In this document: piece by piece, positions 9,788 to 64,000 of the stretch
Position numbering within the stretch: position 1 is the first letter of the stretch
Layout: each line of letters starts with the position of its first letter
Assembly (NCBI RefSeq): GCF_001434145.1
Contig: NZ_AZED01000003.1
Span: 1 to 64,000, forward strand
Direction of reading: 5' to 3'
DNA length: 64,000 nucleotides
From: Lentilactobacillus otakiensis DSM 19908 = JCM 15040
GTDB taxonomy: Bacteria > Bacillota > Bacilli > Lactobacillales > Lactobacillaceae
Position numbers and translations under genes: made by a program
The notes under the pieces: model-generated
Told to the model about the DNA's origin: nothing
The model's input: only the letters and a program-made list of their open reading frames with translations
Databases searched by the model: none

Positions 9788-11203
9788 TTAATTTTCACCA
9801 GTAACAGCTTTGGCATTTTGAACTGGTTGATCTGGACCTAATTTCTTCAAACCAATTCCGGTGAATCCACTCAACAATGAGAAGACTGGGCAAAGGAGAC
9901 TGAAAAAGACAAATGGCAGGTATTGAATAGTAGGAACTCCCAGTGTGTTGGCGATGAAGACACCACCAACGCCCCAAGGAACCAGGTAGTTCAAAACAGT
10001 TCCGCCATCTTCGAGAACCCGACCAAGGGCACGACTGGCAAGGCTACCATTATTGAAGGTCTTTTTGAATGCCCGTCCTGGTAAGATGATTGACAGGAAT
10101 TGTTCACCAACGAAGATATTGACCCCAATGCAGGCTCCTAAAGCAGCTGTAACCAATTTAGCCGGGTTATTCAACCTGGTAGCCAATGGTGACATGATCG
10201 CGCTGATAAGGCCAAAATGGACTAATAAACCACCAAGAGATAACGTCAAAACAATCAAGGCAACCGTGGGCATCATGCTGACGATCCCACCTCTAGAAAG
10301 TAATAGGTTAACTTCGCTGTTGGAAGTCTTGGCAATAAAGCCATTGGTGATAATTGTGCTGGCTTTGGTGACATTCAAACCAGGATTGTTCACAAACATC
10401 ATCCCAGCTGAAACAAAGATGTTTAGGAGCATTGTAGGAATAGCTGCCATTTTGAAACCGGCACAGACAAACACTAAAATAATCGGAATTAACGCCACAA
10501 TTGAAATATGAAAGTCGCTGTTCAATGCCGCAACCGTGGTATTGATTTTGTTCATATCGGCGTGGTTATGTCCCATACCCAGAACAGCGAAAGCGACGGT
10601 CGAAATCGTTGCGGCGGGAATGGTTGACCAAAGAATTGTTTTCATATGATCAAACAAATCGGTATCAACGACCGCTGCTGCTAAGTTATTGGTTTCAGAA
10701 AGTGGTGAACACTTGTCGCCGAAGACCCCGCCTGAAATAATTGCGCCGGCAACTAGTGCTGGGTTGAAGCTCATCGTTACTCCGATGCCAAAGAAGGCAA
10801 TCCCGACGGTGGAGACAACTGTGAAACAACTACCAACTGCGGCACCAACTAATGAACATACCAGAAAGACAGTGGGTAGGAACCATTGGGCACTGATGGC
10901 TTTAAAACCGATAACCATCAGAGTTGGAATCGTTCCAGCGGCGATCCAGGTACTGATCATCGCCCCAATTAAAATGAAGATCACAATGGGAATAATACCT
11001 TTATCAATACCATCTTTGATGCCGGCATTAATTTCATCCCAACTAAATCCAGTGATTTTTGCCCAGAAAATGGTGACGGTAATGGCTAATAATACTGGAA
11101 CTTGTGGCGATAATCCCAGGCCGATAACGCCGGTTCCCATAATTGCTAAAGCAATAACTAAGACCAAAATTGATTCTCTCAAACTAACTTTACTATTTCT
11201 CAT
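9788..11203 (-). CDS. NhaC-family transporter, T-box controlled
   Basis: 471-residue integral membrane protein of the NhaC ion antiporter family, with about 11-12 hydrophobic segments and the family motif GGVFGDKCSPLSETNNLAAA. NhaC relatives exchange Na+ for H+, malate or other solutes. The T-box leader upstream argues that this copy carries an amino acid, since T-boxes sense uncharged tRNA; NhaC-type genes linked to Tyr T-boxes or tyrosine decarboxylase clusters are known in lactobacilli. The ATG has a GAGG ribosome site. The gene is monocistronic apart from the 19-codon frame in its leader. Confidence 0.85.
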   Translation of the reverse strand: MRNSKVSLRESILVLVIALAIMGTGVIGLGLSPQVPVLLAITVTIFWAKITGFSWDEINAGIKDGIDKGIIPIVIFILIGAMISTWIAAGTIPTLMVIGFKAISAQWFLPTVFLVCSLVGAAVGSCFTVVSTVGIAFFGIGVTMSFNPALVAGAIISGGVFGDKCSPLSETNNLAAAVVDTDLFDHMKTILWSTIPAATISTVAFAVLGMGHNHADMNKINTTVAALNSDFHISIVALIPIILVFVCAGFKMAAIPTMLLNIFVSAGMMFVNNPGLNVTKASTIITNGFIAKTSNSEVNLLLSRGGIVSMMPTVALIVLTLSLGGLLVHFGLISAIMSPLATRLNNPAKLVTAALGACIGVNIFVGEQFLSIILPGRAFKKTFNNGSLASRALGRVLEDGGTVLNYLVPWGVGGVFIANTLGVPTIQYLPFVFFSLLCPVFSLLSGFTGIGLKKLGPDQPVQNAKAVTGEN

Positions 11204-11239
11204 GATGCCAACCTCTTTTTATTTTCAAATTTTTAGTTT

Positions 11240-11299
11240 CTATATTAAATTCAGTTGACCATAATATCGTGGCAGGCCGCCATTCGTTGTTCTTTTCAT
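11240..11299 (-). CDS. 19-residue leader open frame between T-box and transporter
   Basis: Encodes MKRTTNGGLPRYYGQLNLI, preceded by a strong AAGGGGG ribosome site at a 7-base spacing. It lies after the T-box terminator and before the transporter, so it is on the read-through transcript only. The adjacent Tyr-Tyr pair is notable next to a T-box whose specifier may be a Tyr codon. It could be a regulatory leader peptide, a small functional peptide or a chance frame; the ribosome site favours translation. Confidence 0.5.
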   Translation of the reverse strand: MKRTTNGGLPRYYGQLNLI

Positions 11300-11321
11300 G
11301 TTAAATCCCCCTTAAGTCAAT

Positions 11322-11550
11322 AAAAAAATCGTCCCTACTGCATCTAAATGCAATAGGGACGATTTTTACCGTGGTACCACCCAACTTGTGTATCAAAAAT
11401 ACACCGCTCACTAGAAGATAATGGATTCTAGTTATTGACCATTGTCGTAATATTACGGTATTTCGTGACCTTACCCTGATTGGTTCGCAGCAACCACCAA
11501 CTTCCTGACGCCCAGATAAGGAACTACTTCATGTAATTCGACTTTAATTA
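11322..11550 (-). promoter_or_regulatory. T-box riboswitch
   Basis: On the minus strand, in order: stem I with the AGTA motif of the specifier loop, an AGGA bulge and a distal loop TGCTGCGAACC; the antiterminator box GGGTGGTACCACGG (RC of 11369-11382); then a terminator with stem ATCGTCCCTATTGCA / TGCAGTAGGGACGAT and seven T (11322-11367). The specifier stretch reads GAAATACC, so the codon is either TAC (Tyr, at 11458-11460) or ATA (Ile), depending on register. I favour TAC because NhaC-type T-box genes have been assigned to tyrosine and ATA is a rare codon. Confidence 0.92.
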
Positions 11551-11558
11551 TTAGAATG

Positions 11559-11587
11559 AGTATAAAACTTGATGAGATTAATTGCAA
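11559..11587 (-). promoter_or_regulatory. Promoter of the T-box transcript
   Basis: On the minus strand TTGCAA (11582-11587), a 17 bp spacer and TATACT (11559-11564), just before stem I of the T-box. Confidence 0.8.
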
Positions 11588-11837
11588 GAAATGTTTTCTT
11601 TGTTCCGATCCTGTCGGACATTAGTGTAATGATCCAAAAAATAGTCATTATTCTAAATAATCTAAACAAATATTCCGTTTTCGCCTAATAATATCCAAAA
11701 AAATCTTATTTTCACCTTTTTAAACAACGAAATGTAACCAAACCTAACATCAAAGTCTGTTTTGTGATAATATAAATGCATTCTCATTAGAACCTTTTAA
11801 TCTAATTCTTATGTTGCTCTTATTTAGGAGGATGCCT

Positions 11838-13229
11838 ATGAAGTCAAAAATTCAAGAGAACCAAGATGGAACCATGCGAGCTTTAAGTAACCGTCACGTT
11901 CAGATGATCGCGATTGGTGGAACGATTGGTACTGGGTTGTTCCTGGGATCTGGGAGTACCATCAGTAAGACTGGTCCATCAGTAATGCTGATCTATTTAG
12001 TCCTCGGACTCTTTTTCTTCTTCATGATGCGTGGAATCGGTGAAATGTTTTACTCCGATCCGTCCCAGCATACATTTGTGTCATTTATTTCCCGTTACTT
12101 AGGTCCGACGGTTGGCCACTTTACCGGCTGGACGTACTGGATCGGTTTGGTATTCGTTTGTATGGCTGAGCTCAGTGCGACTGCCACATATGTCAAATTC
12201 TGGTTCCCCTCGATTCCGGCTTGGATTATTGAAGTCGTGTTCCTGGCAATTCTAGCCAGCGTTAACTTAATTGCTGCACGATTGTTCGGTGAAGCAGAAT
12301 TCTGGTTTGCCATGATCAAAATAATTGCGATTTTAGCCTTGATTTTCACAGGAATTTTCATGATGTTCCGCCATACCGTCACTCCGGTTGGCCATGCCAC
12401 AATTAGTAATCTTTTTAGCAATTTTCAATTATTCCCTCATGGTGGTGTGAACTTTATTGCCGCATTCCCAATGGTTTTCTTCGCTTTTATGGGAATTGAA
12501 TTTGTTAGTATCACAATTGGTGAGGCTAAAAACCCACAAACAGTTATCAAAAAGGCTGTTAATGAAACACTGATTCGAATTTTAATCTTCTATATAGGTG
12601 CGTTGACGGTTATCATGGGAATCATCCCTTGGTCATCAATTACGCCTAATAGCAGTCCTTTCGTTCAGGTATTGAAATTAGCAGGACTCCCAGCTGCAGC
12701 GGCGGTTATTAACTTCGTTGTTTTGACCTCTGCAGCCTCATCGTTAAACAGTTGTATTTTCTCTGCCGGCCGACATTTCTATCAGTTGGCTACAGAAGTT
12801 CCGGAAGACAGCTGGATGCGAAAAACGTTTGCCAAAATTTCCAAAAATGGTGTTCCAGCCCCAGCTATTATCTTCTCGGCTGCCCTGGTCCTCATAACGC
12901 CACTGATTAGTTTAACGAATGGCTTAGCGTCAGTATTTACCATTGTAACTGGGATTTCCAGCGATATGTATATTATCGTTTATACATTGGCAATGCTGGC
13001 CCACAGAAAGTATCGTCAATCTGCTGACTTCCTGCCAAATGGGTTTCTAATGCCCGCATACAAAATTATGAGCCCACTGACGATCGCGTTCTTCGTGGTC
13101 ATCTTTGGATCATTGTTCTTCGTTCCAGAAGATATCATTGGCGCAGTTGGTGCCATCATCTGGACCGCAGTCTTCGGTGGTGTAACGTATCTTCATCAAC
13201 GAAAATTGGTTCCCGACACAGATCAATAG
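11838..13229 (+). CDS. Amino acid permease, APC superfamily (AAT type)
   Basis: 463-residue secondary transporter with about 12 membrane segments. The first one carries the APC hallmark IAIGGTIGTGLFLGSG; the AAT-type GEAEFWFAMIKI loop is present. Substrate is probably an amino acid taken up with H+, but it cannot be read from the sequence. The ATG at 11838 was chosen over upstream ATGs because AGGAGG at 11826-11831 gives a 6-base spacer. It is transcribed divergently from the T-box unit about 270 bp away and ends at its own terminator. Confidence 0.88.
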   Translation: MKSKIQENQDGTMRALSNRHVQMIAIGGTIGTGLFLGSGSTISKTGPSVMLIYLVLGLFFFFMMRGIGEMFYSDPSQHTFVSFISRYLGPTVGHFTGWTYWIGLVFVCMAELSATATYVKFWFPSIPAWIIEVVFLAILASVNLIAARLFGEAEFWFAMIKIIAILALIFTGIFMMFRHTVTPVGHATISNLFSNFQLFPHGGVNFIAAFPMVFFAFMGIEFVSITIGEAKNPQTVIKKAVNETLIRILIFYIGALTVIMGIIPWSSITPNSSPFVQVLKLAGLPAAAAVINFVVLTSAASSLNSCIFSAGRHFYQLATEVPEDSWMRKTFAKISKNGVPAPAIIFSAALVLITPLISLTNGLASVFTIVTGISSDMYIIVYTLAMLAHRKYRQSADFLPNGFLMPAYKIMSPLTIAFFVVIFGSLFFVPEDIIGAVGAIIWTAVFGGVTYLHQRKLVPDTDQ

Positions 13230-13291
13230 AATTATGAAAACCCAAGTAGAATAAAACTAAAGATCTGTTTCCTCCAATAAAATAAATTCAA

Positions 13292-13323
13292 GAATTCCCG
13301 TCAAACGATTGGCGGGAATTTTT
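13292..13323 (+). terminator. Permease terminator
   Basis: Stem GAATTCCCGTC / GGCGGGAATT followed by T run. Confidence 0.85.
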
Positions 13324-13411
13324 CTAGTCCATTTTAGTGCCATCTGTTCAAGAATTCCCCAGGCCATTTAATACCATTTAGTATTCCAAAGTTATCATTC
13401 CCACCCAATAA

Positions 13412-13548
13412 AGTTTTTCGCTTGGCATTGCCAGTCATAGTGAAAGTGCTGTTGAGCGGCTGAAAGCAGCGATTACAGCACCCCGGTATTTCGAGACTAC
13501 AGGCTCGAAATCCGGGCCACTATGGCAGGCGGAGCCAAGCGAAAAACT
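13412..13548. repeat. Cloverleaf-like palindromic element
   Basis: Perfect 15 bp terminal inverted repeat AGTTTTTCGCTTGGC (13412-13426) / GCCAAGCGAAAAACT (13534-13548), continued by CATAGTG / CACTATG. Inside are two further stems: GTGCTGT / ACAGCAC, holding a mini-hairpin GCGGCTG-aaa-GCAGC, and CCGGtATTTCGAG / CTCGAAAtCCGG. No open frame is present. It resembles a small non-autonomous palindromic repeat more than a terminator. Confidence 0.7.
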
Positions 13549-13684
13549 GACAGCCAAAGCGCAATATTTGATTTTTAAACGATATAAATTGAGATGTTAA
13601 TAACCACAAACAGTCGCATGAATAAAAGGAGCCCGGATTTATGGTAAAATAAGACCATTAAGCTATTGATGAAGAGGAATTAAC

Positions 13685-15697
13685 ATGAAAAATTGGTTTA
13701 CAAACAACAGTGGTGAATTGCCACCATTTGTTCATAACCGACGCCTCAGGAGAATCATGATTTTTATCTCGTTAATCGTGATTTATGGCATCGTTATTTC
13801 ATTTTTATATAACATCGTGGCTTCCCTCATTCTAATCGTGATCAGTGTCATTGGTCTGATTTTCACCATCGTGATGATGAACGAAATCAGCTCGGATACT
13901 AACCGTTATATTACCGACTTATCGTATCGAATCCACCGTGGCGAACAGGAATCGCTCCTGGAAATGCCGATTGGGGTCATGATTTTAAATGACGATGATT
14001 TGGTAGAGTGGGCAAACCCCTATATGGTGAAGTACTTTAAGGATGAAAATTTACTGGGCCGAAAGATCGACGATATTGATCATGATCTCCAGCAGTTGAT
14101 CACTAAGTACGCCGAATCAGATGAGTTCCATACGATCACGTGGCGCGATCACAAATTTACCATGCTGATCCAAAAGGAATACAACTCCGTTTACCTGATG
14201 GACATCACTCGCTACGCAAATCTCGAGGAACGGTACAACGAAGAACAGATTTCCGTTGGCCAGATTTTCTTGGATAACTATGACGAAATCACCCAGTCGA
14301 TGACCGACCAGGAAATTTCCAATCTGAGTAATTATGTCACCAACGAGTTGGCCACTTGGTCACAGAAATACGGGATGTATCTTAAGCAGATTGATGACGA
14401 TCATTTCTTCCTGCTGGCTTACTCCAAGTCGCTGACAGCGATCGAAAATGACAAATTCAACATTTTGGACACTGTCCGTGAGACAACTTCCAAGCAAAAC
14501 TTCCCACTGACCTTGAGTATCGGAATCGCTTATGGCGAAGATGACTTGAATAATTTGGCAGATCAAGCCCAAAGTAACCTTGATTTAGCCTTGGGTCGTG
14601 GTGGTGACCAAGTTGTTGTTAAATCATTGGATGGCACTGCCCGATTCTATGGTGGTAAGACCAACCCAATGGAGAAGCGGACCCGGGTTCGGGCTCGGAT
14701 GATTTCTCAAGCCTTGAATGAATTGATGAGTGCTTCAGATCAAGTCTTTGTTCAAGGTCATACGCGACCCGACATGGATTCATTGGGTGCCTGCTTGGGT
14801 ATCCGGCGAATTGCCCAAATGAACAATAAAAAGTGCTGGATCGTCCTTGATAAGGAAAAGGTTCACTCGGATATCCAGCGTTTACTGGAAGCAACCAAGA
14901 AATATCCAGAAATTGCCGATTCAATCATCACCCCGTCTGAAGCCATTTCCAAAGCAACTGATAGTAGTATGTTAATCATGGTGGATCATTCCAAGCCATC
15001 GATTAGTATTTCTGAAGATTTGTATAAACGGATGTCGGCCAAAGTGGTCATCATTGATCATCACAGGCGTGGTGAAGAGTTCCCCGAAAACCCAATGTTG
15101 GTCTACATCGAACCCTATGCATCATCAACTTGTGAGCTGATTACCGAAATGTTTGAATATCAGCCTCATGAAGAAGAACCAATCAACCGAATTGAAGCAA
15201 CTGCGATGTTAACTGGGATCTTTATTGATACCCAGCGCTTCTCAATGCGAACCGGTACCAGAACCTTTGACGCTGCCAGTTACTTGAGATCAGCGGGTGC
15301 CGATTCCGATGAGATGCAGCAGTTTATGAAAGAAAATATCGATAGTTACCTGCAACGCAACCACTTAATCTCCAAAGTCGAATTTTTCCACAAGAATATG
15401 GCTTTGATTGTCGGCGAAGAAGATCAGGTATACGATCCAGTCACTGCGGCTCAAGCCTGTGATTCACTGCTGACAATGTCTGGGGTCGATGCATCATTCA
15501 TCATTACCAAACGATCCGACGGTCAAATTGGCGTCTCCGCTCGAAGTACTGGTACTGTCAACGTCCAAGTCATTATGGAACAAATGGGCGGTGGTGGTCA
15601 CTTATCCAGTGGTGCTACTCAGGTTTCCGACAAGACGATTGCCGATGTGAAAAAAATGCTGCTTGAAACGATCAAGAATATCGATGATAATGAATAA
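13685..15697 (+). CDS. gdpP: Cyclic-di-AMP phosphodiesterase GdpP
   Basis: Membrane phosphodiesterase that degrades c-di-AMP and so tunes osmotic and cell-wall homeostasis. 670 residues in the family order: two membrane segments (about 22-62), a PAS-like domain, a degenerate GGDEF domain, a DHH domain (GHTRPDMDSLGA near 358, MVDHSKPS, IIDHHRRGEEF near 456) and DHHA1 (GGGGHLSSGA near 636). All metal-binding motifs look intact. rplI follows closely, as in other Firmicutes, giving a gdpP-rplI unit. Confidence 0.96.
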   Translation: MKNWFTNNSGELPPFVHNRRLRRIMIFISLIVIYGIVISFLYNIVASLILIVISVIGLIFTIVMMNEISSDTNRYITDLSYRIHRGEQESLLEMPIGVMILNDDDLVEWANPYMVKYFKDENLLGRKIDDIDHDLQQLITKYAESDEFHTITWRDHKFTMLIQKEYNSVYLMDITRYANLEERYNEEQISVGQIFLDNYDEITQSMTDQEISNLSNYVTNELATWSQKYGMYLKQIDDDHFFLLAYSKSLTAIENDKFNILDTVRETTSKQNFPLTLSIGIAYGEDDLNNLADQAQSNLDLALGRGGDQVVVKSLDGTARFYGGKTNPMEKRTRVRARMISQALNELMSASDQVFVQGHTRPDMDSLGACLGIRRIAQMNNKKCWIVLDKEKVHSDIQRLLEATKKYPEIADSIITPSEAISKATDSSMLIMVDHSKPSISISEDLYKRMSAKVVIIDHHRRGEEFPENPMLVYIEPYASSTCELITEMFEYQPHEEEPINRIEATAMLTGIFIDTQRFSMRTGTRTFDAASYLRSAGADSDEMQQFMKENIDSYLQRNHLISKVEFFHKNMALIVGEEDQVYDPVTAAQACDSLLTMSGVDASFIITKRSDGQIGVSARSTGTVNVQVIMEQMGGGGHLSSGATQVSDKTIADVKKMLLETIKNIDDNE

Positions 15698-49915: not shown

Positions 49916-49961
49916 AAGGCATTGAAGTACGCTCAAACGAGACGTGGCTTCAATGCCTTTT
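49916..49961 (+). terminator. Operon 1 terminator
   Basis: Stem AAGGCATTGAAGtACG / CGTggCTTCAATGCCTT followed by T run. Confidence 0.88.
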
Positions 49962-50010
49962 GATATATAATAGGTATGTATCATTTGATACGGATGATGG
50001 GGGAATATCA

Positions 50011-51006
50011 ATGGAAAAAATGACAATTAAAGACATTGCAAAGCTGGTTGGTGTTTCCACAGCAACAGTCTCTAATTACCTGAATGGTAATCTTACCAAG
50101 ATGTCTCCAGTAACCCAACGCAAAATTGCAGAAATGATTCGTAATACCAATTATGTGCCAAGTAGTGTCGCTCGGGGGTTAGCGACAAATGACAACAAAA
50201 CCATTGGTGTTTCAGTTGCAGATATTACCAACCCATTTACATCAACTGTCTTATCCGGAATTTATGAGGAATGCGGAAAGCATGGGTACAGAGTTCTCTT
50301 TACAAATGCCAGCAGTGATGCCTCACGTGAGACTGACAATATTTCGAAGCTGCAGAATCAGCAGGTTTCTGGATTGATCATTGACCCGGTTGAAGGTGAT
50401 AGCCCTATTTTTAAGACAATTACGAATCGTGATGCTGTGATGATTGATCGGCAAGCAAGTCAAATTAAAGTTGATACAGTTGTTACTGACAACTTTGAGT
50501 CTGTCAAAAGGTTTGTTTCGAAGATGCTGGATGAAGAATATGACACATTGTATTACGTAAGTTGGCCGTTAAAAAATGTGAGTACCCGTTGGAACAGATA
50601 TAATGGATTTCTTGAAGCAACCGGCTATACATCTGGGACGCATTATCTCTCAGTCCATAATACTGGTGATACAAGTGAGTTTGTTGACCAGCTGACAGAA
50701 ATTATGGAAGACAATGTTGGAAAAAAGGTTGGATTCTTTACAATGAATGGTCGTGTCCTAATTCGGTTGTTAGCTGCGATGGAATTTCTTGGACTGGAGT
50801 ACCCTATCGATTATGGAGTTGGAAGTTATGAGGACTTGGATTGGATGAGTATTATGAAGCCCGGCATCAGTTGTATTCACCAAGATTCATATGCCATTGG
50901 TACAAAGGCAGTTGAAATACTCTTGGATAAACTTAATTCCAAGACTGAAGCCGAGCCTAGATTAATTGAAGTTCCGACAACTGAAAAGATACGTGCCTCA
51001 TACTAG
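50011..51006 (+). CDS. LacI-family regulator 1 of the sugar island
   Basis: 331-residue repressor: a LacI helix-turn-helix (MTIKDIAKLVGVSTATVSNYLNGN, hinge VPSSVARGLA) and a periplasmic-binding-type effector domain (GVSVADITNPFTSTVLSGIYE). It resembles the second regulator at 59020-60027 along its whole length. ATG at 50011 after TGGGGGAA. Its leader contains TATAAT and a perfect palindrome GTATCATTTGATAC (49978-49991). It lies between operons 1 and 2, whose operators have the form GTTAACCGGTTAAC. Confidence 0.9.
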   Translation: MEKMTIKDIAKLVGVSTATVSNYLNGNLTKMSPVTQRKIAEMIRNTNYVPSSVARGLATNDNKTIGVSVADITNPFTSTVLSGIYEECGKHGYRVLFTNASSDASRETDNISKLQNQQVSGLIIDPVEGDSPIFKTITNRDAVMIDRQASQIKVDTVVTDNFESVKRFVSKMLDEEYDTLYYVSWPLKNVSTRWNRYNGFLEATGYTSGTHYLSVHNTGDTSEFVDQLTEIMEDNVGKKVGFFTMNGRVLIRLLAAMEFLGLEYPIDYGVGSYEDLDWMSIMKPGISCIHQDSYAIGTKAVEILLDKLNSKTEAEPRLIEVPTTEKIRASY

Positions 51007-59019: not shown

Positions 59020-60027
59020 GTGGAAAAGCTCACAATTAAAGATATTGCTCGACTAGCGGACGTCTCCACGGCTACTGTCTCTAATTACTTAAATGGTAAT
59101 TATTCCAGAATGTCTGAAAAAACTCGTAAGAGACTTGAAGATATGATCCGGGAAACAAACTACGTGCCGAGTAGCGTTGCTAGAGGATTAGCAACAAATC
59201 ATAATAAAACCATTGGTGTTTCTGTTGCTGATATTACCAATCCTTTCACATCTACGGTTCTTTCAGGAATCTATGATGCTTGCGGAAAGTTGGGATACAC
59301 TGTTGTGTTTACAAATGCCAGCAGTGATTCTACAAGGGAAATTGATAACGTTAACAAGCTGAAACACCAAGAAGTGTCAGGGTTGATCATTGACCCAGTC
59401 GATGCCGAGAATGCGATTTTTAAGACTCTAAGCAATGATTCAACAGTCATGATTGACCGGCAGGCGGCAGCTGTCAAAATTGATTCTGTGGTGACTGATA
59501 ACTATAATGCAGTGAATAAGTTTGTTGGAAATATGAAGAAAAGCGGTTATATCGATGAAGATCTGTACTTCATCAGCTGGCCACTTAGAAATGTCAGCAC
59601 GCGGTTAGAACGTTATCGTGGGTTCAAGACGGCGACGGGAATCAAGGATGATAGTCATCTGATTTTGGTTGATGATAGTGGTGATGATCAATACTTTATT
59701 AGTCAGATTAAACAAATTGTTGATCGAAAGCGTTCAGGTAAAGTTGGATTCTTTACAATGAACGGACGAGTCTTGCTTCATTTGCTTAAGGCAATGCAGG
59801 CTCTCAATTATCGCTATCCAGATGACGTTGGAATTGGTTCTTATGAGGATTTAGATTGGATGGAGATCATTCAGCCTGGAATTAGTTGTATCCATCAGGA
59901 TTCGTTTAATTTAGGCGTCACGGCTGTGAATACACTTGTTCGTAAGCTAGAGGATGAAAAGACTAAACATTTTGTGCCTCAGTTGATTGAGGTGCCTACT
60001 ATGATTAAGATGCGCGGATCGTATTGA
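59020..60027 (+). CDS. LacI-family regulator 2 of the sugar island
   Basis: 335-residue paralogue of 50011-51006, with nearly the same helix-turn-helix (LTIKDIARLADVSTATVSNYLNGN) and hinge, and an identical VSVADITNPFTSTVLSGIY stretch. GTG start after TTGGAGGA. Similar recognition helices predict overlapping operators; different effector domains would let two signals act on one operator set. Confidence 0.9.
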   Translation: MEKLTIKDIARLADVSTATVSNYLNGNYSRMSEKTRKRLEDMIRETNYVPSSVARGLATNHNKTIGVSVADITNPFTSTVLSGIYDACGKLGYTVVFTNASSDSTREIDNVNKLKHQEVSGLIIDPVDAENAIFKTLSNDSTVMIDRQAAAVKIDSVVTDNYNAVNKFVGNMKKSGYIDEDLYFISWPLRNVSTRLERYRGFKTATGIKDDSHLILVDDSGDDQYFISQIKQIVDRKRSGKVGFFTMNGRVLLHLLKAMQALNYRYPDDVGIGSYEDLDWMEIIQPGISCIHQDSFNLGVTAVNTLVRKLEDEKTKHFVPQLIEVPTMIKMRGSY

Positions 60028-60041
60028 TCGGCGTTTTTTTT
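60011..60041 (+). terminator. Terminator overlapping the lacI-2 stop
   Basis: Stem CGGATC / GATCgG around the stop codon, followed by eight T. Short but with a good T run. Confidence 0.6.
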
Positions 60042-60355
60042 GTCCACTGAAGTTGGCAAAACACTTTTTACTTGCAGATGTGCTGATAGTTTTATGGCCA
60101 CCAATATTTCATCCAGTTTGGCATTCTGCTTTGTAATGGTTGATTAAATGGCTACACTCGTTCATGAGAAATAGCGAGGATAGGGGTGTCAATACATTAA
60201 AATCAAAATTCAAGGGGCTTTAATTTGCTCTTTTTTATCACTAATCCTTGATGATATACTTAAGCATATCGTAGAAGTTTGCAAGCAGATCAAAAAGTCA
60301 TTGAAAACGAATGACCTTGTGTTTTCAAATGGCTTAATGACGGCGTTTGTTTAGT
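60042..60355. other. Non-coding leader before the CRISPR mini-array
   Basis: About 310 bases without a gene. An AT-rich stretch (60225-60330) contains the inverted repeat TTGAAAAC (60301-60308) / GTTTTCAA (60321-60328) and a -10-like TATACT (60255-60260), without a convincing -35. This is where the array and cas promoter should lie. Confidence 0.5.
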
Positions 60356-60505
60356 GTATTCCCCACGTGTGTAGGGGTGATCCCTACGGTGCTGACGGTC
60401 AACAAGATTACACTAAGTATTCCCCACGTGTGTAGGGGTGATCCTACCGTCGGTGATTTCGATGACATGCAAAAGGGGTATTCCCCACGTATATGGGGGT
60501 TATTA
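60356..60505 (+). CRISPR. Type I-E mini-array, two spacers, last repeat degenerate
   Basis: Two identical 28-base repeats (60356-60383, 60417-60444) starting GTATTCCCCACGTGTG and ending GGGTGATCC, and a third at 60478-60505 with seven changes, mostly in its 3' half. Two 33-base spacers lie at 60384-60416 and 60445-60477. The stem CCCCACGTGTGTAGGGG is of type I-E form, and its orientation (GGGTGATCC at the 3' end) reads towards cas3, whose start is 38 bases after the array. Confidence 0.95.
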
Positions 60506-60543
60506 ATAGCAATGTGAATACAAAAGTTTAAGGAAGTGAGTAA

Positions 60544-63345
60544 ATGAGTATATCGCAGAGCACCAGCAGTCTTTGGGCTAAAAAGAAAGTTGAAAATGGG
60601 AAAGATCTTTGGTTACCATTGGTTACTCATCTGATTGATACTAAAAATGTGATGAATTGGTTATATCAGAACTGGCTAAGTGATAGTCAAAGACAACTGT
60701 TCAAACAATCACCACTTGGTGCCAATCTTGAAAAGACAGATGTTGAAAAGTTAGTTAAATTCATTGGCTTTTGTCACGACATCGGTAAAGCTACTCCAGT
60801 TTTTCAAAGAAAACCATCTCACGCCCATGACGCTGAACTAGACACTCGCGTAATGGAGCAATTACTAAAAAGCGGATTTGCTGGGCTGAATGTTAACGAA
60901 CTATCCAATACTAAAAAGTCACCACACGCAACGGCTGGTGAAGCACTGCTTGAACGCTGGCAGGTGCCGGTTAGCATTGGTGCAATCATTGGTGGCCATC
61001 ATGGATTGCCCCTAGAGGAAAAGCCCGATAGACAGATTGATGCTTATACAAACAACTATTTTCTAACGGATGAAGAACCTGATAAGCATAATATTTGGCT
61101 ACGAACTCAAACAGAACTATTTGAATATGGGCTAAATCTGGCTGGGTATCGGGCTGTGAATGAAATTCCGAGTGTTGACCAACCGCAAGCCGTTATTTTA
61201 GAAGGATTGCTAATTATGGCTGACTGGCTGGCATCAAGTGAGTATTTGAGTAATGAAGATCGGGTTGAATTATTCCCACTGGTACCGCTCAATACCTCAT
61301 GGAAAGACATTGACACTGAACAACGTTTTAAGCATGCGATGGCAAACTGGAATTTAAGCGGCCACTGGCTGCCACAAGTAGTTTCCACCAGTAGTGACCC
61401 TTATCAGAAACGCTGGGGCTTTGATGCCCGACCAGTACAGGCAGCCATCACTAAAGCGGTTGCCAAAACCAAAGAACCGGGAATGTTGATCGTTGAAGCA
61501 CCAACTGGTCTAGGAAAAACTGAAATTGCCTTGGTTGCTGCGGAACAGTTAGCCTACATTGACGGAGAAAATGGCGTTTTTATGGGCTTACCAACCCAAG
61601 CAACGACTAATGCCATGTTTGATCGGGTAGACGACTGGTTGGAAAAAGTAGCCCAATCACAAGACGAAAGTTTTTCTATTAAACTTATGCACGGAAAAGC
61701 CCGCTTTAATAAACATTACGAAAGGATTCCCAATGCATCTAACGTGGAAGACCCAAGTACCCGAGCAGCTAGTGTCACAGTCAACGGCTGGTTCTCCGGT
61801 AAGAAGTCAATTTTAACCGAATTTACTGTGGGGACAATTGATCACTTGCTACTGATGGGACTCAAGCAAAAGCATTTATTCCTAAGGCATCTGGGATTAA
61901 GCGGTAAAGTGGTGATTATTGATGAAGTCCATGCCTATGATAGTTTTATGAACCAATACTTATATAAAGCGATCAACTGGTTAGGGGCTTATCATGTACC
62001 ATTGGTAATCTTGTCCGCCACACTGCCAAAAGCTAAACGGAATGCCTTAATCGAAGCATACTTAGTCGGTAAATATGGTACCAAGCATCCTAAAAACTTC
62101 AAAGCACCTAAAAACTGGCAGGAAAGTGAAGCTTATCCACTCGTTAGCATCGTGGATGGGACGGAATTAAAGCAGGTTACTAAGTTTGAAGGTAACAGTG
62201 ACCAAAAGCCGTTTCACATACAGGTGAAACGAATCAATCCTGATAATAACCAATTAATTCAGGCGGTGTTAGCGAAAATTTCTGAAGGTGGGGTTGCCGG
62301 AATCATTGTCAATACCGTCAAGCGGGCGCAAGCTTTGGCAAAGTTAGTCCCAAAAGGTGTAGAACTGATGATGTTACACTCAGCATTTTTAGCGCCAGCC
62401 AGAGAAGTACAGGAAGAAAAGCTGCAAAAAGCCATCGGTAAACGCGGGCAGCGGCCTAAAAAAATGATTGTGATCGGCACGCAAGTCCTTGAGCAGTCAT
62501 TGGATATTGACTTTGACGTGCTGTATACCGACATTGCCCCGATGGATTTAATCTTACAGCGGGCTGGGCGGATGCATCGACACCAGATTAAGCGACCTAA
62601 AAATTTACAAACACCAGAGCTGTTTGTAATGGGGATTAACGGCCCCGGTGATTACGGCAAGGCGAATGAGTTTATTTACCAAAAGTATCTGTTAATGAAA
62701 ACCGATTATTCTCTGGGCGATCGTATTAGCATCCCGCAAGACGTATCAAAATTAGTGCAGGCGGTCTATGAGCAGGCTAATGATAACCAGATACCAGTAG
62801 AACAAATGCCGAGCTTAGCCGATGTTAGAAAAGTTTTTAACGACTATGTGAAAAAAGAGTCGGCTAAAGCGCAAACCTATCAAGTCAATTCACCCAACTA
62901 TTTTGCTGATTTACACGGCTGGCTGACCCGGCCACAAAAGGATATCGATCAAGACGAGCAAAAAGCCAGTGCCGCAGTCCGGGACATTCAAGAAACTTTG
63001 GAAGTCGTGTTATTGCAGCATACGGACAAAGGCGATTTTTTGATCCCTAAACAAACCGGTCAAAAGCCCACACCAATCGCCAAGGCAAGTAATAATCAAA
63101 TTGCCCAACAAGTGATTCGGATCCCGGCAGTAGTAACGGCTGGGGAGGACTTAAATAAAGCACTTGACGAGCTAACCGAGATCACCAGCCAGCTTTATCC
63201 AAACTGGCAAAATGATGTCTGGTTAAAAGGGAGTCTGGCCTTACCATTGGATAACCATTTAACTGCCACGTTAGGCAGTTGGCAGTTAAGCTACTCAACT
63301 GGGTTAGGGATGAGCTATGTGAAGGAGAGTCACAATGACAATTAA
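60544..63345 (+). CDS. cas3: CRISPR-associated nuclease-helicase Cas3 (type I-E)
   Basis: 933-residue effector nuclease recruited by Cascade to degrade target DNA. The N-terminal HD nuclease has His78-Asp79 (GFCHDIGK) and GGHHG at 151-155. The SF2 helicase has Walker A (APTGLGKTE near 318), DEVHAYD near 460, SATLP near 492 and QRAGRMHRH near 669. Motifs look intact. Ribosome site AAGGAAGTGAG. It runs into casA with an 11-base overlap and has the mini-array directly upstream. Confidence 0.95.
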   Translation: MSISQSTSSLWAKKKVENGKDLWLPLVTHLIDTKNVMNWLYQNWLSDSQRQLFKQSPLGANLEKTDVEKLVKFIGFCHDIGKATPVFQRKPSHAHDAELDTRVMEQLLKSGFAGLNVNELSNTKKSPHATAGEALLERWQVPVSIGAIIGGHHGLPLEEKPDRQIDAYTNNYFLTDEEPDKHNIWLRTQTELFEYGLNLAGYRAVNEIPSVDQPQAVILEGLLIMADWLASSEYLSNEDRVELFPLVPLNTSWKDIDTEQRFKHAMANWNLSGHWLPQVVSTSSDPYQKRWGFDARPVQAAITKAVAKTKEPGMLIVEAPTGLGKTEIALVAAEQLAYIDGENGVFMGLPTQATTNAMFDRVDDWLEKVAQSQDESFSIKLMHGKARFNKHYERIPNASNVEDPSTRAASVTVNGWFSGKKSILTEFTVGTIDHLLLMGLKQKHLFLRHLGLSGKVVIIDEVHAYDSFMNQYLYKAINWLGAYHVPLVILSATLPKAKRNALIEAYLVGKYGTKHPKNFKAPKNWQESEAYPLVSIVDGTELKQVTKFEGNSDQKPFHIQVKRINPDNNQLIQAVLAKISEGGVAGIIVNTVKRAQALAKLVPKGVELMMLHSAFLAPAREVQEEKLQKAIGKRGQRPKKMIVIGTQVLEQSLDIDFDVLYTDIAPMDLILQRAGRMHRHQIKRPKNLQTPELFVMGINGPGDYGKANEFIYQKYLLMKTDYSLGDRISIPQDVSKLVQAVYEQANDNQIPVEQMPSLADVRKVFNDYVKKESAKAQTYQVNSPNYFADLHGWLTRPQKDIDQDEQKASAAVRDIQETLEVVLLQHTDKGDFLIPKQTGQKPTPIAKASNNQIAQQVIRIPAVVTAGEDLNKALDELTEITSQLYPNWQNDVWLKGSLALPLDNHLTATLGSWQLSYSTGLGMSYVKESHNDN

Positions 63346-64000
63346 AAGCTTTAATTTAACGATTGACCCGTGGCTAAAAGTAATCATCAAAGATACCATG
63401 CAGGAAGAAACGGTTTCTTTAATTGAGCTGTTTGAGAATGCCGGAAAGTACCAGCGATTAGCCGGTGAGATGCGGGCGCAGGACCTAGCTGTTTTCCGAT
63501 TCCTACTGGCAATTTTGACCACGGTTTATTCCCGTACTGATGGCAATGATCAACCGTATGATTGGCTAGGAGACAACTACCAACTTAACGGGAATGTTGA
63601 CCAAGATAACCAATTTGACAGCCATCGGATAATGACTGATCTATTAGGAACGTGGAAAGAACTGTATCGGCAAGGACGTTTTACCGCAGCGGTAACAACT
63701 TACTTGAAACAGAATGCCAAACAGTTGGATTTGTTTGGCGATACTCCGTTTTATCAAGTCAGTTTAACTGATTACAACCACTTCGTGACAAAAGACAAGC
63801 AGATAACTGACAAAAAGCATCCCGGTACGGTAGCAGTCAGACAGATTAACCGGAAAGTGTCTGAAAGTAATAATAAAAAAGCGTTATTTATTCCGCGGGT
63901 TACTGAAACCAAAGACCAAATCAAGCTTGATGAGCTAACCCGCTGGCTGATCACCTATCAGAACTACACTGGAGTAACTGATAAGTCAAAAGTCGCCATG
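63335..64000 (+). CDS. casA: Cascade large subunit CasA/Cse1, partial at window end
   Basis: First 222 codons of the type I-E Cse1 family, cut by the window end. MTIKSFNLTIDPWLKVI is the typical opening of the family, followed by SLIELFENAGKYQRLAGEM, a helical stretch and a region rich in TPFYQV. Cse1 recognises the PAM and recruits Cas3. AAGGAGAG ribosome site; the start lies inside the end of cas3, so cas genes are coupled. Confidence 0.92.
   Translation, partial: MTIKSFNLTIDPWLKVIIKDTMQEETVSLIELFENAGKYQRLAGEMRAQDLAVFRFLLAILTTVYSRTDGNDQPYDWLGDNYQLNGNVDQDNQFDSHRIMTDLLGTWKELYRQGRFTAAVTTYLKQNAKQLDLFGDTPFYQVSLTDYNHFVTKDKQITDKKHPGTVAVRQINRKVSESNNKKALFIPRVTETKDQIKLDELTRWLITYQNYTGVTDKSKVAM

Follow-up and report, generated by a model that had tools for sequence, protein, structure and literature searches.

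A CRISPR array of only two spacers stands directly before the cas3 operon in the window, the 64,000-nt stretch of DNA analysed here (bases 1-64000 of contig 17 in a genome of 2.35 Mb), and is likely to be an ordinary type I-E array of small size that possesses a leader of its own. It is array-like in its leader, its repeats, the size of its spacers, the C or T with which these begin, and a trailer-end repeat that is decayed, as in the main array of the same genome. Most likely, it is not a repressing guide for its own cas promoter. As an ordinary array, it would be transcribed from its leader towards cas3, its transcript would be cut by Cas6e within the repeats, and Cascade would carry the two resulting crRNAs as defence guides against mobile elements.

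The cas genes of the locus are open frames that form a type I-E operon. The first of them, cas3 (60544-63345, + strand, 933 aa), matches helicase and HD models above the cut-off, and is followed by the start of cse1 (casA; 63335-64000, + strand), which runs past the window end and scores 64.2 bits against TIGR02547, just below the cut-off of 70.05. Downstream are cse2, cas7, cas5, cas6e, cas1 and cas2, the last of which is fused to a DEDDh-type exonuclease domain. The models for Cas3, Cse2, Cas7, Cas5, Cas6e, Cas1 and Cas2e are all above cut-off, with Cse1 slightly below. The main array lies beyond the cas genes and has 12 repeats and 11 spacers, the last repeat again being decayed. Right behind it stand an AAA+ protein gene and its partner (10834-12384 and 12396-13757 of region L007), which we take from their motifs to be McrB- and McrC-like. 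On the other side of the locus, directly before the CRISPR leader, is an island flanked by two genes (49960-51006 and 59020-60027) that presumably encode LacI-type regulators and that resemble each other at 72% along 300 nt of DNA; between them are genes which we assume to be of a sugar-metabolism type.

The array itself (60356-60505, + strand) consists of repeat 1 (60356-60383), spacer 1 (60384-60416), repeat 2 (60417-60444), spacer 2 (60445-60477) and a third, trailer-end repeat (60478-60505), giving a period of 61 nt. The first two repeats are intact and identical at 28 nt, and both spacers are 33 nt long, in agreement with the preliminary description, which had also correctly placed the array 38 bases from the start of cas3 at 60544. 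The third repeat is decayed at 6 of 28 positions, one fewer than the seven counted before, and differs from the main-array repeat at 4 of 28 in a comparison by eye. Even so, it can fold by itself (-9.3 kcal/mol), and 20 of 200 shuffles fold equally well. A chance origin of the repeats is excluded: allowing up to three mismatches, the repeat has two matches in the window and none in 100 shuffles of it. Spacer 1 begins with C and spacer 2 with T, bases that are probably derived from the PAM. Both thus fit a rule seen across the 19 loci scanned, wherein 489 of 503 distinct spacers begin with C or T; the last main-array spacer, which is outside this count, begins with G against the rule. The repeat is therefore effectively 29 nt long, and the PAM of the system is probably AAY, with the 29th repeat base taken from it.

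The 112 nt before repeat 1 (60244-60355, + strand) are identified as a CRISPR leader by their similarity to three other array leaders, found by comparison with 24 genomes of the genus, including its own. This stretch is 71% identical over all 112 nt to the DNA before a three-repeat array in G015 (E 1.4e-9), 83% identical over 63 nt to the DNA before an array on contig 18 of G013 (E 1.9e-11), and, in its last 29 nt, 86% identical to the leader of the main array (E 0.015). In the G015 array, repeats 1 and 2 have the same sequence as those of the window. The related leaders in G015 and G013 belong to stand-alone arrays, and at E 1e-3 neither of their contigs carries cas genes related to those of the window. 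Seven plasmid records match the first repeat plus 19 to 33 leader bases; phages gave no match. A plasmid origin of the leader-array unit was considered and rejected: the G015 contig with the related leader looks chromosomal, since four of its genes are 80-94% identical to window genes (those at 31.9-45.3 kb), and its array is not before cas3.

The spacers have no convincing source among the sequences searched. Searches of phages and plasmids returned nothing better than E 0.3, and the matches were short and mostly to elements of unrelated hosts; one of them, to a Lactobacillus delbrueckii phage (the same record twice), covers 17 nt of spacer 2 at E 4. In viral contigs, two patterns of spacer 2 gave no match, and spacer 1 has a single 22-nt match (L037, 1429-1450, on a contig of 71.8 kb). 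L037 was rejected as the origin of spacer 1, as the match adjoins TTT and not AA, and 8 of the last 10 bases differ by eye. These missing protospacers say little, because the spacers of the main array likewise find nothing clear: searched whole against phages, that array yielded one record at E 0.02, covering stretches longer than a spacer, with the rest at E 9, and none of the four main-array spacers tried matched the viral contigs.

Arrays before cas3 are usual among the relatives of this locus. Our sample comprised 73 genomes with a cas3 match, from which G060 and G130 are absent and to which G016 contributes two loci, giving 72 loci whose cas3 starts were estimated from alignment. Within the available stretch, repeat-like DNA occurs upstream of cas3 in 48 of the 72 loci and a good repeat in 35, and 28 loci have at least five good repeats. 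The stretch available was short in four genomes (G008, 136 nt; G095, 377 nt; G377, 382 nt; G374, 386 nt). With an ordinary type I-E array, the array of the window shares a repeat of 28-29 nt, the 61-nt period, a leader, co-directional orientation, cognate cas genes and the decayed trailer-end repeat; it differs in having two spacers only and in lying 38 nt from cas3. A secondary type I-E locus is reported in all but one of the studied Lentilactobacillus parabuchneri strains, and has fewer repeats in the strains listed (PMC9724434).

None of the other loci among the 48 with repeat-like DNA before cas3 has a gap as short as these 38 nt, the next being 63 nt. This leaves little room for a separate cas3 promoter, and cas3 may thus be transcribed from the array leader, in which case the transcript would cross the array and continue into cas3, provided that it does not end there. 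A tentative extension, which we hold to be possible but somewhat doubtful, is that leader and array have replaced the usual cas3 promoter, so that cas3 is transcribed through the repeats and Cas6e cuts the 5′ end of its message. In favour of this, a candidate promoter at 60232-60260 (+ strand), with an extended -10 (TG, TATACT) and a weak -35 (TTTTTA) at a spacing of 17 nt, is the best in 60028-60543, scoring 9.5 against 9.0 for the next, whereas the best promoter-like site with its -10 after 60440 scores 7.5. Its extended -10, TGATATACT, aligns with TGATATAAT in the G015 leader. Moreover, in 8 of the 11 relatives that bear regulatory guides, discussed below, the target of the guide starts 33-118 nt before cas3, the place taken here by the array. 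However, the promoter score is home-made, and a separate promoter scan was no better than chance, with two sites against 1.9 expected and the leader candidate not among them. The same scan, run also for terminators, found one weak terminator-like hairpin, inside the third repeat, which speaks against transcription through the array, and a cas3 promoter could overlap the array itself.

It is also conceivable, though rather unlikely, that the array is a dead remnant, once longer, which has shrunk and now neither is expressed nor gains spacers. Such a remnant is compatible with the ordinary-array explanation in kind but not in activity, and the second reading of the preliminary description, that of an ordinary array which is small or has shrunk, agrees with the leader, the repeats and the decay at the trailer end. 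The presence of only two spacers agrees with shrinkage, as does the genome of G015, which has an array of three repeats behind the related leader (L118, 7952-8102) and one of two repeats (L117, 7068-7156), and in which cas3 finds no match at 1e-60. Against loss of activity, no decay is seen in the leader end or in repeats 1 and 2, and the cas genes are open frames.

The preliminary description had also offered a different role, that of a self-regulating guide of the CreR type, in which one spacer would bring Cascade to the cas3 promoter and so keep the operon repressed. CreR, a cas-regulating mini-CRISPR, is attributed to Liu et al. (Cell Host Microbe, 2023). Guides of this kind are thus already known: one review covers CreR in type I and type V-A systems (PMC12737573), and another states that cas-regulating RNAs bring about autorepression in systems of types I-B, I-E and V-A by being partly complementary to the promoter (PMC13131331). 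In CreA modules, the first repeat is the one that diverges most (PMC9458426). Keyword searches of open papers, judged by title and the start of the abstract, found none on CreR in lactobacilli.

Related loci provided a positive control, in which cas3 is preceded by a guide, roughly 20 or 32 nt long, between two mostly degenerate repeats, and this guide matches DNA just before the gene. The 72 loci were joined by L009 and L017 for this purpose, giving 74 upstream regions, and a strict scan of 1080 tests tried every repeat-like end in three registers. The scan required AA in front of the target, left positions 6 and 12 unscored, and compared each row with 300 shuffles that permuted blocks of 25 bases. 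Twelve rows passed, from 11 of the 74 regions: G013, G017 (twice, once shifted by a base), G014, G016b, G333, G224, G201, G126, G208, G119 and L009 (regions also numbered L012/L029, L030, L032, L035, L052, L057, L063, L075, L092, L093 and L009). None of 300 shuffles reached the passing rows, except for the shifted row of G017 (1/300). All targets are on the + strand and adjoin AAC or AAT in the common register, and the seed is complete (10/10) in 10 of the 11 loci, with 9/10 in L009. Position 6 is mismatched in 7 of the 11 loci, position 12 likewise in 7, and both in 5, with neither mismatched in G017 and G119; across the remaining positions 1-12 there is one mismatch only, at position 7 of L009. 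Type I-E Cascade skips every sixth base when it reads a target. Since the scan ignored positions 6 and 12, mismatches there are permitted and do not count as proof; the findings proper of the strict scan are only the C or T that follows AA, the placement on the + strand and the shared register. Judged by sequence, the passing relatives are what a CreR should look like.

A looser guide scan gave more candidates, for example G179, G108, G032, G149, G230, G118, G092 and G241, and also picked what look like ordinary spacers (G037, G167, G367, G323 and G312), and the guide counts given here rest on the strict scan alone. Two of the loose candidates that failed the strict scan, L087 and L090 (G149 and G230), have guides some 265-286 nt upstream of where cas3 is estimated to start, with targets that directly abut the first repeat of the guide itself, an arrangement that would suit a guide RNA acting at the promoter from which it is made. 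G016 (L. raoultii) has two type I-E cas3 loci, L035 and L034, and a CreR-like guide in only one of them within the stretch examined.

The spacers of the window behave differently under such a scan. In a stretch from about 540 nt upstream of cas3 to 40 nt inside the gene, with the array itself excluded, the best AA-flanked seed in the register used by the relatives is 6/10 for spacer 1, reached by 213 of 300 shuffles, and 7/10 for spacer 2, reached by 60 of 300. Of the remaining registers, the one with the fewest such shuffles is register 0 of spacer 2 (23 of 300); an 8/10 match of spacer 2 in that register is found, but on the array itself. The comparison of the spacers with the whole genome that the preliminary description had proposed gave no site with AA and a full 10-base seed for either spacer anywhere in the 2.35 Mb. 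The five-base partial match of spacer 1 near the leader that it had reported (CTACG) is present, at 60274 on the - strand, and is the only occurrence in 60028-60543 outside spacer 1, but it is preceded by TT and not by AA.

A guide encoded elsewhere in the genome was likewise sought. A stem pattern allowing up to three mismatches found only 13 array repeats; as this pattern is blind to some diverged first repeats, the 25 places with RGGGTGATCC were added, of which 12 are array repeats. None of the 25 gave a full-seed match to the stretch before cas3 or to the main leader, in a scan that misses first repeats with a changed 3′ end and leaves aside the last main-array spacer. Three of them, L130 and the main-array spacers L140 and L139, reach a seed of 9/10. 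The match continues to 11/17 in L130 and 10/17 in L140, both by AAA, and to 13/17 in L139 in a register unused by the relatives. We regard these three as probable chance matches.

The array does resemble CreR in being a short repeat-spacer unit before the cas genes in the same orientation, and its position and orientation recall the guides of the relatives, as does the presence of a decayed repeat. However, unlike CreR, its spacers have no above-chance complementarity to the DNA upstream of cas3, its first two repeats are intact and identical (degeneracy of the first repeat being a criterion of CreA, carried over here to CreR), and it has two spacers where the CreR-like units of relatives have one. 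Similarly, it shares with the CreA of CreTA, a guide that matches the promoter of a linked toxin gene, the small number of repeats near cas genes, but its first repeat is not degenerate, and for its spacers the genome holds no AA-flanked site, counting full-seed sites only. Because the spacers match like shuffled sequence and lack any AA-flanked full-seed site, an ordinary array is preferred over a CreR here; with seeds of 6/10 and 7/10, no full-seed match from the 25 further places, and relatives that are positive under the same scan, self-regulation of the CreR type is rejected as highly improbable. That a CreR was once present at this locus and has been lost is a conjecture, since the stretch upstream of the leader resembles relatives no more than shuffles do.

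This means that a small array before cas3 is not to be called a regulator without a match test, and that such a test has a working positive control in the relatives, whose guides match the DNA before their own cas3 genes, next to AAC or AAT, in all or nearly all of the seed. We regard it as unlikely that a leader-bearing array has replaced the cas promoter at the level of the lineage, with a 5′ end of the cas mRNA cut by Cas6e and a leader that controls cas where relatives use an RNA guide. Ultimately, if array and operon are indeed fused, the locus would be a natural case in which the activity of a CRISPR leader directly sets cas expression.
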